Below, piece after piece: positions 21,071 to 43,259 of a stretch of 64,000 nucleotides of DNA. The stretch comes from Caldithrix abyssi DSM 13497 (lineage in GTDB: Bacteria; Calditrichota; Calditrichia; Calditrichales; Calditrichaceae), in the NCBI RefSeq assembly GCF_001886815.1, contig NZ_CP018099.1, positions 3,656,501-3,720,500 of the forward strand. The letters are read 5' to 3'. Position 1 is the stretch's first letter; each line of letters begins with the position of its first letter. Position numbers and translations under genes: made by a program. The notes beneath the pieces are model-generated. The model made no database searches. It was not told the origin of the DNA and worked only from the letters and a program-made list of their open reading frames with translations.

Positions 21071-22365
21071 GATGGATATTCAGATGTCCCTACGGGACAT
21101 TTTTCAATGTGTTGGTTTCAGGCCTTTTCCCGGCAGTGAACTGCCGCGTTATTCTCAACAATCCCTATGGGATTTAATTTTTACTCCAACAAAAATTTGA
21201 CAGATCTACAGAAATTTCACACTACGTACCGCCAATGAATCCGCCCCGTCAGGGACGATTGAGAATAGCCCGTTGATTCATCGGCGGGGAAAAGGAAGCG
21301 AACCAACGTCAATCCCGTCCCGGTAGGGACGATTGAAACGGGCGGGATGGATATTCAGATGTCCCTACGGGACATTTTTACATTTGTGTGTCTTCCCTAT
21401 TCCCGGCAGTAAACTGCCGCGTTATTCTCAACAATCCCTACGGGATTTTTCCACAAATTTTCGTCCCGTGAGGGACGTTTGAGAATAGCCCGTTGATTCA
21501 TCGGCGGGAAAAAGGAAGCGCACCAACCCCAATCCCGTCCCGTAGGGACGTTTGAGAATAGCCCGTCGTTTCAACGGCGGGGAAAATGCACTGAACCAAA
21601 TCACAATCCCGTCCCGGTAGGGACGGCTGAAACCTGGCGAAATGGAAATTCAGATGTCCTTCCGGGACATTTTTACATTTTGTGTGGTTTCCCGTTTCCC
21701 GGCAGTGAACTGCCGCGCTATTCTCAACAATCCCTACGGGATTTAATTTTTACTCCAACAAGAATATAGCATATCTACAAAAATTTCACACTACATACCG
21801 CCACTGAATCTGTCCCGTCAGGGACGAATGATAATAGCCCGCTGATTCATCGGCGGGGAAAAGGAAGCGACCCTCCCCAATTCCGTCCCGGTAGGGACGG
21901 CTGAAACTGGCGGGATGGATATTCAGATGTCCCTACGGGACATTTTTACATTTGTGTGGTTTTTCCTTTTCCCGGCAGTGAACTGCCGCGTTATTCTCAG
22001 TAATCCCTACGGGATTTAATTTTTACTCAAACAAAAATTTGCCATATCTACAAAAATTTCACACTACGTACCGCCAATGAATCCGTCCCGACAGGGACGA
22101 TTGAGAATAGCCCGTTGATTCATCGGCGGGGAAAAGGAAGCGAACCAACGTCAATCCCGTCCCGGTAGGGACGATTGAAACGGGCGGGATGGATATTCAG
22201 ATGTCCCTACGGGACATTTTTACATTTTGTGTGATTTCCCTTTTTCCGGCAGTGAACTGCCGCGTTATTCTCAACAATCCCTACGGGATTTTTCCACAAA
22301 TTTTCGTCCCGTGAGGGACGTTTGAGAATAGCCCGCTGATTCATCGGCGGGAGACAAATTTAAAA
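21071..22365. repeat. Array of five ~274-bp hairpin-rich units (block 1)
   Basis: Units begin (GATGGATATTCAGATGTCCC or variants) at about 21071, 21346, 21640, 21914 and 22188, spaced 275, 294, 274 and 274 bp. The last is truncated. In the unit at 21914 the main palindromes are GTCCCTACGGGAC (21929-21941), CGGCAGTGAACTGCCG (21973-21988), AATCCCTACGGGATT (22002-22016) and CGTCCCGACAGGGACG (22084-22099), plus a CCCG...CGGG stem around GATTCATC and a CCCGGTAGGGACG motif. Some units have internal deletions or duplications (the short form at 21346 lacks the ACTCCAACA...CACTAC part). Changes in the stems are often compensated or fall in loops. No coding potential. Confidence 0.92.
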
Positions 22366-41730: not shown

Positions 41731-41887
41731 AGGCACCGGGCAAAGAAGAAAAATCGTACCTTGAGCTTTTTCTGCAGATTTGATTTTGATGAATTGCCAA
41801 AACAGGCTATCTTCAAAAACACCGCGATTCTCCGCATGGTCTTATTTTACCACGTCAACATTTTTTTTCGAAGAATCCGTATCGGAG

Positions 41888-41921
41888 CCGCAGGATCCTT
41901 ACAGGACGAGACCGCCCCGTT
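41888..41921 (-). repeat. tRNA-Ser fragment joined to hairpin motif
   Basis: On the minus strand, AACGGGGCGGTCTCG (41921-41907) is identical to 15 nt of the tRNA-Ser(CGA) D-arm/anticodon-stem region. It is followed directly by TCCTGTAAGGATCCTGCGG (41906-41888), a variant of the 20-nt insertion found in the array at 42.3-43.2 kb. The order (tRNA piece, then hairpin) is the reverse of that in the array. It overlaps the GIY-YIG stop codon by two bases. Confidence 0.8.
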
Positions 41922-42162
41922 AAAGAATGCCGCGACCTTTTAACCATTGGCGACCTTCAATCGTTTTGAAAAATTGCTCCCGCTGAAACGCTTCCGAACG
42001 AGTAGCAAATTCTTCGTAGTAAATGAGTCTCCAGGGACGAAAGGCTTTGGTGGAGCGCACCTTCCCGCTGTTGTGGCGCGTTAACCGTTCTTCCAGGTTC
42101 TGTGTGTGACCAAAATAATGACGACCGGAAGCTAAACTTTCAAGAACGTACGTGTAGTACAT
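41920..42162 (-). CDS. GIY-YIG nuclease-like protein
   Basis: An 80-residue single-domain protein of the GIY-YIG superfamily (UPF0213/YhbQ-like group). The first motif reads MYYTYVLESLASGRHYFGHTQN, with YYTYVL as the GIY part and HYFGHT as the YIG part (His in place of Tyr-Ile context). Conserved Arg in LEERLTRHNSG, and WRLIYYEEFATRSEAFQREQFFKT containing the catalytic-site Glu, are present. The start codon lies only 2 bases after the 3' end of tRNA-Ser(CGA) on the same strand, so there is no room for an ordinary ribosome site outside the tRNA. The 3' end touches a tRNA-Ser fragment. Short but full length for this group. Confidence 0.8.
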   Translation of the reverse strand: MYYTYVLESLASGRHYFGHTQNLEERLTRHNSGKVRSTKAFRPWRLIYYEEFATRSEAFQREQFFKTIEGRQWLKGRGIL

Positions 42163-42164
42163 GC

Positions 42165-42251
42165 GGAGAGGGTGGGATTCGAACCCACGGACCCCGAAAC
42201 AGGGTCAACGGTTTTCGAGACCGCCCCGTTCAACCACTCCGGCACCTCTCC
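42165..42251 (-). tRNA. tRNA-Ser(CGA)
   Basis: An 87-nt tRNA with the long variable arm of serine tRNAs. The acceptor strands GGAGAGG / CCTCTCC pair fully, the anticodon loop is CTCGAAA (anticodon CGA, reading UCG), the T arm GTGGGTTCGAATCCCAC is canonical, and the discriminator is G. CCA is not encoded. It is preceded (upstream on the minus strand) by eight partial copies of its own 5' half. Confidence 0.95.
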
Positions 42252-43159
42252 AATTATTTCATCTTTTAATTTCTAAAAAATTTAACTTTAACACAATACT
42301 TTTTCATTTTCGAGACCGACCCGTTTCCGCAGGATCCCTACGGGACAACCACTCCGCCACCTCTCCAATTATTTTATCTTTATTTCTAATTAATTCAACT
42401 TTAAACTATGCTTTTTTATTTTCGAGACCGACCCGTTTCCGCAGGATCCCTACGGGACAACCGCTCCGGCACCTCTCCAATTATTTCATCTTTATTTCTA
42501 ATCAATTTAACTTTAACACAATACTTTTTTATTTTCGAGACCGACCCGTTTCCGCAGGATCCCTACGGGACAACCACTCCGCCACCTCTCCAATTATTTC
42601 ATCTTTATTTCTAATCAATTTAACTTTAACACAATACTTTTTCATTTTCGAGGCCGACCCGTTTCCGCAGGATCCCTACGGGACAACCACTCCGGCACCT
42701 CTCCAATTATTTCATCATTATTTCTAATCAATTTAACTTTAACACAATACTTTTTCATTTTCGAGACCGACCCGTTTCCGCAGGATCCCTACGGGACAAC
42801 CACTCCGGCACCTCTCCAATTATTTCATCTTTTAATTTCTAAAAAATTTAACTTTAACACAATACTTTTTCATTTTCGAGACCGACCCGTTTCCGCAGGA
42901 TCCCTACGGGACAACCACTCCGGCACCTCTCCAATTATTTCATCTTTTAATTTCTAAAAAATTTAACTTTAACACAATACTTTTTTATTTTCGAGACCGC
43001 CCCGTTTCCGCAGGATCCCTACGGGACAACCACTCCGGCACCTCTCCAATTATTTTATCTTTATTTCTAATTAATTCAACTTTAAACTATGCTTTTTTAT
43101 TTTCGAGACCGACCCGTTTCCGCAGGATCCCTACGGGACAACCACTCCGGCACCTCTCC
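42252..43159 (-). repeat. Tandem array of eight tRNA-Ser 5' halves with a 20-nt D-loop insertion
   Basis: Read on the minus strand each unit is an AT-rich spacer of 56-59 bp, then GGAGAGGTGCCGGAGTGGTT(G) as in tRNA-Ser(CGA), then the 20-nt insertion TCCCGTAGGGATCCTGCGGA in the D-loop, then AACGGGTCGGTCTCGAAAA, ending within the anticodon loop. The 3' half of the tRNA is missing in every unit. On the plus strand the CGAGACC landmark of the units is at 42311, 42423, 42536, 42649, 42762, 42877, 42992 and 43104, with periods of 112-115 bp. The real tRNA (landmark at 42216) plus its leader is the ninth, insertion-free member. The ORF-like open frames across it are translation artefacts. Confidence 0.95.
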
Positions 43160-43174
43160 AAATAATATAAAAAG

Positions 43175-43259
43175 CGGAGAGGGTGGGATTCGAACCCACG
43201 GTGGCTGACGCCACACACGATTTCCAGTCGTGCCGATTCGACCGCTCTCGCACCTCTCC
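43175..43259 (-). tRNA. tRNA-Ser(GGA)
   Basis: An 85-nt serine tRNA. The acceptor strands GGAGAGG / CCTCTCC pair, the anticodon loop is CTGGAAA (anticodon GGA, reading UCC/UCU), the variable arm GTGTGGCGTCAGCCACC is long and paired, the T arm is GTGGGTTCGAATCCCAC and the discriminator is G. CCA is not encoded; CTTTTT follows directly. It is the most upstream gene of the tRNA-Ser locus. Confidence 0.95.

Follow-up and report, generated by a model that had tools for sequence, protein, structure and literature searches.

Free-standing GIY-YIG homing endonucleases of T-even phages provide the closest described parallel to the locus analysed here. SegB, encoded beside tRNA genes, is reported to cut within tRNA genes with a preference for the motif RAWTSGAAC, and is required for the tandem amplification of the adjacent tRNA segment by homologous recombination (PMC13096335). 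SegB amplifies an intact tRNA together with segB in a phage. Tandem repeats that each carry a piece of the neighbouring tRNA occur as the 178-bp repeats of E. coli tyrT, associated with rtT RNA; these contain 3′ ends, are located downstream only, and have neither hairpin interruptions nor an adjacent nuclease gene. In type III toxin-antitoxin systems such as ToxIN, tandem RNA-coding repeats are located upstream of a nuclease gene. Finally, integrative elements targeting tRNA genes insert such that one functional tRNA copy is restored and a partial copy is left.

Here we investigated a 64,000-nt stretch of the Caldithrix abyssi DSM 13497 chromosome (from here: the window), in which an array of tRNA-Ser 5′ halves is located beside a GIY-YIG gene. 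In contrast to SegB, the genes of this family are chromosomal, about 80 aa in length and split into tRNA-isotype-specific clades, and the repeats are hairpin-interrupted partial tRNA copies. No phage record matched by tblastn at E 1e-5 and no PHROGs family was matched, hence the link to SegB is one of functional analogy, not of close homology. The array does not match the Rfam RtT family at the gathering cut-off, and a literature search for tyrT/rtT-like repeats retrieved no paper with the terms tried. The layout resembles type III toxin-antitoxin loci in that tandem non-coding repeats precede a nuclease gene, but the functional tRNA lies between them, the repeats are tRNA-derived and the protein in the toxin position has the GIY-YIG fold rather than being a ToxN-type ribonuclease. 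Compared with integrative elements, there is a single nuclease gene, partial copies occur at both ends, hairpin inserts are present, and no integrase was evident on inspection of the ORFs at 36–50 kb. We found no earlier description of chromosomal GIY-YIG genes with interrupted tRNA copies in the papers searched, which included neither subscription papers nor preprints.

The tRNA-Ser(CGA) array and the adjacent GIY-YIG gene

The initial annotation had described eight units of 112–115 bp, each holding a tRNA-Ser(CGA) 5′ half with the same 20-nt insertion in the D-loop, and this observation was confirmed. The features, all on the minus strand, are as follows.

43174..43259 (−): intact tRNA-Ser(GGA)
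43048..43159 (−): unit 1 (112 bp), tRNA-Ser(CGA) 5′ half, insert and spacer type A
42933..43047 (−): unit 2 (115 bp), spacer type B; the only unit with GGGGCGG as in the functional gene
42818..42932 (−): unit 3 (115 bp), spacer type B
42705..42817 (−): unit 4 (113 bp), spacer type C
42592..42704 (−): unit 5 (113 bp), spacer type C
42479..42591 (−): unit 6 (113 bp), spacer type C
42367..42478 (−): unit 7 (112 bp), spacer type A
42252..42366 (−): unit 8 (115 bp), spacer type B; its spacer is the leader of the functional tRNA
42326..42345 (−): 20-nt double mini-hairpin insert TCCCGTAGGGATCCTGCGGA in the D-loop of unit 8; identical inserts start at 42438, 42551, 42664, 42777, 42892, 43007 and 43119
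42163..42251 (−): functional tRNA-Ser(CGA)
41920..42162 (−): free-standing GIY-YIG nuclease ORF (80 aa), its ATG directly abutting the tRNA 3′ end
41907..41921 (−): 15 nt identical to tRNA-Ser(CGA) positions 22–36, remnant of the downstream interrupted copy
41887..41906 (−): degenerate ninth insert TCCTGTAAGGATCCTGCGGC in the anticodon-loop position of the downstream remnant

Each unit consists of tRNA-Ser(CGA) positions 1–21, the insert TCCCGTAGGGATCCTGCGGA, positions 22–40 (through CGAAAA) and an AT-rich spacer, and none has a 3′ half. TRF reported 94% matches with a score of 1612. The insert is exact in 8/8 units, while dinucleotide shuffles of the window gave 0 matches. The spacer types follow the order A B B C C C A B, the units are 94–99% alike, and a two-unit block of 253 nt is 98% identical at the two ends of the array, pointing to tandem growth by unequal exchange. 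In two congeners the two serine tRNAs are neighbours with only 23 or 30 bp between them, so the array is an addition.

Three features had not been noticed initially: the GIY-YIG ORF, the degenerate ninth insert with its tRNA-Ser remnant, and comparable arrays at six other tRNAs of the same genome. The ORF product matched Pfam PF01541 with an E-value of 3.4e-17. It is a stand-alone gene; the only Rfam matches in the window were tRNA and Acido-Lenti-1, with no intron family, and only tRNA in the array region. In the ninth insert the first mini-hairpin keeps its pairing (TCCC/GGGA to TCCT/AGGA). The order is therefore eight 5′ partials, functional tRNA, GIY-YIG gene and a 3′-side partial.

The initial annotation had offered three explanations, and its interpretation was supported only in part. 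Tandem duplication of leader plus half-gene describes how the array grew. A reverse-transcribed tRNA half is not supported, because the insert and spacers are genomic, upstream copies at other tRNAs continue past the anticodon, and downstream copies carry 3′ halves. The third, a locus producing RNAs that titrate Ser-tRNA enzymes or nucleases, remains a conjecture from sequence alone; the end point in the anticodon loop is specific to this locus, and copies elsewhere end at other positions. The absence of similar arrays in relatives had been set as a refuting condition. Such arrays are common, but they point to a nuclease-linked process that had not been considered.

Interrupted tRNA copies in the same genome and beyond

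We compared each tRNA gene detected in this genome with its own surroundings. Interrupted partial copies were found for 7 of 44 tRNAs, namely Ser(CGA), Ser(TGA), Ser(GCT), Asn, Cys, Glu(CTC) and Glu(TTC), while Lys(TTT) has one 15-nt match. All copies are on the strand of their tRNA and none is on the opposite strand. Upstream copies keep the 5′ end, whereas downstream copies keep 3′-side sequence, mostly through the 3′ end and often with a terminator-like hairpin. Ser(TGA) has five upstream copies (period 104) and three downstream (two with period 199). Five of the seven arrays have no GIY-YIG gene. Among these, tRNA-Glu(TTC) (locus L133; G000:C1 4552819-4554507, G000 being this genome) is followed by at least ten 3′ partial copies with a T-loop double hairpin. 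The GIY-YIG gene beside the four-copy tRNA-Asn array (G000:C1 547803-547997; locus L097 1804-1995) has in-frame stops and looks like a decaying nuclease gene.

The possibility that the insert is a genome-wide dispersed palindrome was rejected, because it occurs only in tRNA-Ser arrays and one degenerate neighbour. The sequence TCCCGTAGGGATCC is found only in the Ser(CGA) D-loop array and the Ser(TGA) anticodon-loop array, apart from one 1-mismatch stray, and TGCGCAGCATCCTGTGGA only in T-loops of Ser(TGA) and Glu(CTC) copies. Palindromes of the type TCCCGCC..GGCGGGA do also occur elsewhere in the genome, so that this hairpin type is not exclusive to the arrays. The T-loop double-hairpin pattern is confined to the class (4 of 385 genomes). 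A phage origin was not supported, as there was no match in phages, PHROGs or viral contigs for the T-loop insert.

The GIY-YIG family is frequent in the class (26 of 40 genomes). Every tRNA recorded beside it there is on the same strand, usually 0–60 bp upstream, and many loci carry hairpin-interrupted 5′ partials upstream and 3′ partials downstream. For 86 inserts (59 distinct) the mean folding z was −1.9, with 35 of 59 below −1.5; stems stay paired while loops vary. The insert position is conserved per isotype across families: Asn after 37 resuming at 48, Cys 37/56, Glu 27/45 and Asp 50/59. Four congeners carry copies at partly different tRNAs and in different numbers, so turnover is fast. 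Outside the class, 18 of 20 sampled loci have a same-strand tRNA within about 500 bp, and several show the order 5′ partial, GIY-YIG, full tRNA or the order full tRNA, GIY-YIG, 3′ partial. Locus L260 repeats the whole layout of the window with tRNA-Ala, and locus L018 is a Bacteroidota example with tRNA-Ser(GGA) and a T-loop insert. In a Planctomycetales MAG (locus L023 2138-3234) two tandem GIY-YIG genes of this family follow a tmRNA gene, thus the association may extend to tmRNA.

Isotype specificity and a possible mechanism

In a maximum-likelihood tree of 69 nuclease rows, the nucleases cluster by the isotype of the adjacent tRNA rather than by host (11 changes versus 19 for host family; all groups 22 changes versus a shuffled mean of 43.6, 0 of 200 as low), although many forks are unresolved because the protein is short. 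For ten loci lacking an intact upstream tRNA (mostly contig ends), the isotype was predicted from the tree and then looked for in the DNA. A fragment of the predicted isotype was found in 9 of 10 loci, one had no hit and none was wrong. One of the nine, locus L066, matched a sequence that ARAGORN calls tRNA-Glu(CTC) but which is the interrupted tRNA-Ser copy of locus L042, itself called tRNA-Glu(CTC). Similarly, an interrupted Asp copy in locus L263 (2014-2092) is called tRNA-Asp, hence such copies can be taken for real tRNAs of the wrong type or for functional genes. Six of eight measurable paralogue pairs have dN/dS of 0.05–0.23, consistent with selection, while two are near 0.8–0.9.

The complement of the SegB motif is the T-loop sequence GTTCGAATY. 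In this genome it is present in 18 of 44 functional tRNAs and absent from the pseudo-copy arrays scanned. All seven clean inserts examined lie inside a T-Y-G-A core resembling this motif (TTC^GA in T-loops, TYG^AA in anticodon and D-loops), with a joint probability of about 6e-10 under random placement. The core was chosen after seeing the sites, which makes this a lead rather than a proof.

We consider it somewhat more likely than not that the array is the amplified 5′ flank of a tRNA-Ser-specific chromosomal GIY-YIG gene that behaves like a free-standing homing-type nuclease gene parasitising tRNA genes, and that the arrays are its scars. In this view, the nuclease would cut its cognate tRNA gene, and break repair against an intact copy would leave one functional tRNA plus partial copies, with 5′ parts upstream and 3′ parts downstream. 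Partial copies with a mini-hairpin at or in place of the cut site would no longer be cut and would persist, recombination between leader-plus-half units would expand them in tandem, here to eight, and the nuclease gene would later be lost while arrays remain. Of these elements, the layout of the copies, the insert positions, the repeat structure and the occurrence of arrays without a GIY-YIG gene rest on the analysis itself, while DNA cleavage, the tRNA as the target, the repair route, resistance to cutting, homing and the origin of the hairpins are inferred, and stimulation of the expansion by the nuclease is inferred from SegB. Patchy presence among congeners is compatible with homing but is not proof. 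The functional tRNA beside the nuclease keeps the presumed target, so self-cutting must be weak or controlled. The eight halves also keep one uninterrupted TYGA core in the anticodon loop, which a simple resistance model does not explain, and at most isotypes the hairpin replaces an arm rather than marking a clean cut.

These results link a puzzling satellite to a recurring, apparently undescribed chromosomal arrangement in which tRNA genes, among the most conserved genes known, appear to be exploited by isotype-matched nuclease genes. They give a testable explanation for broken tRNA copies that annotation tools can miscall as other tRNAs. The proposed mechanism would extend SegB-type tRNA-targeted amplification from phages to bacterial chromosomes, and the hairpin-interrupted copies provide ready-made cut and uncut substrates. 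A more far-reaching possibility, which we regard as doubtful but not excluded, is a widespread, undescribed class of tRNA-isotype-specific nuclease systems in bacterial chromosomes, in which each GIY-YIG nuclease is paired with arrays of hairpin-bearing mimics of its cognate tRNA. These would act as cut-resistant DNA decoys or as RNA inhibitors, giving either a natural "cleave and rescue" tRNA drive or a new kind of toxin-antitoxin system.

Alternative explanations

Action at the RNA level and neutral drift are both less likely on present evidence, yet neither is excluded. The GIY-YIG protein might act on tRNA of one isotype, with the arrays transcribed as tRNA mimics in which the sensitive arm is replaced by an uncleavable hairpin and which titrate the enzyme as decoys or antitoxins, in a layout resembling type III toxin-antitoxin loci. 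This would agree with the isotype match between nuclease and mimic, the sense orientation of all copies within the tRNA transcription unit, in some cases with linkers of about 17–24 nt that are too short for separate promoters, the replacement of a specific arm at an isotype-conserved position, and the conserved stem pairing. Several upstream modules (Asn, Ser-GCT and Glu) also fold better than shuffles (z about −2), but the module of this window does not (z −0.6 to −0.85), and complementarity of the upstream tails to 5′ halves is weak overall (combined p 0.01, driven by one module in a hand-picked set). Moreover, characterised GIY-YIG enzymes act on DNA, and most arrays in this genome lack the nuclease. 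A neutral satellite, in which partial copies arise by ordinary slippage or unequal crossing-over and drift while nuclease genes merely use tRNA genes as safe harbours, would fit the similarity and block structure of the units, the persistence of arrays without the nuclease and the non-significant fold of this module. Alone, it does not explain the hairpin inserts, their exact sharing between different tRNA loci, their isotype-conserved positions across families, the strict 5′-upstream and 3′-downstream asymmetry, or the isotype-matched nuclease clades.

Still less likely are tRNA-half RNAs acting independently of the nuclease, whether by titrating seryl-tRNA enzymes or stress nucleases, as suggested initially, or as a pre-tRNA leader tuning tRNA-Ser maturation. 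The sense orientation and the intact 5′ end and leader of each unit would suit such a role, but arrays turn over between congeners, use different parts of the tRNA at different loci and have no conserved end point. Attachment-site remnants of tandem integrative elements that target tRNA-Ser by a tyrosine integrase are a remote possibility. Repeated tRNA parts beside a tRNA are typical of such elements, but besides the lack of an evident integrase among the ORFs inspected, the units are about 113 bp without cargo and the repeats are 5′ halves carrying inserts, whereas att repeats are usually 3′ ends.

Other tandem repeats are present in the window. Short repeats of 36, 72 and 96 bp occur at 2098–2634, and repeats of about 73 and 273 bp rich in CCGTCCCGTAGGGACG palindromes occur at 21462–22291, one stretch of which (21536–21581) matches the Rfam family Acido-Lenti-1.
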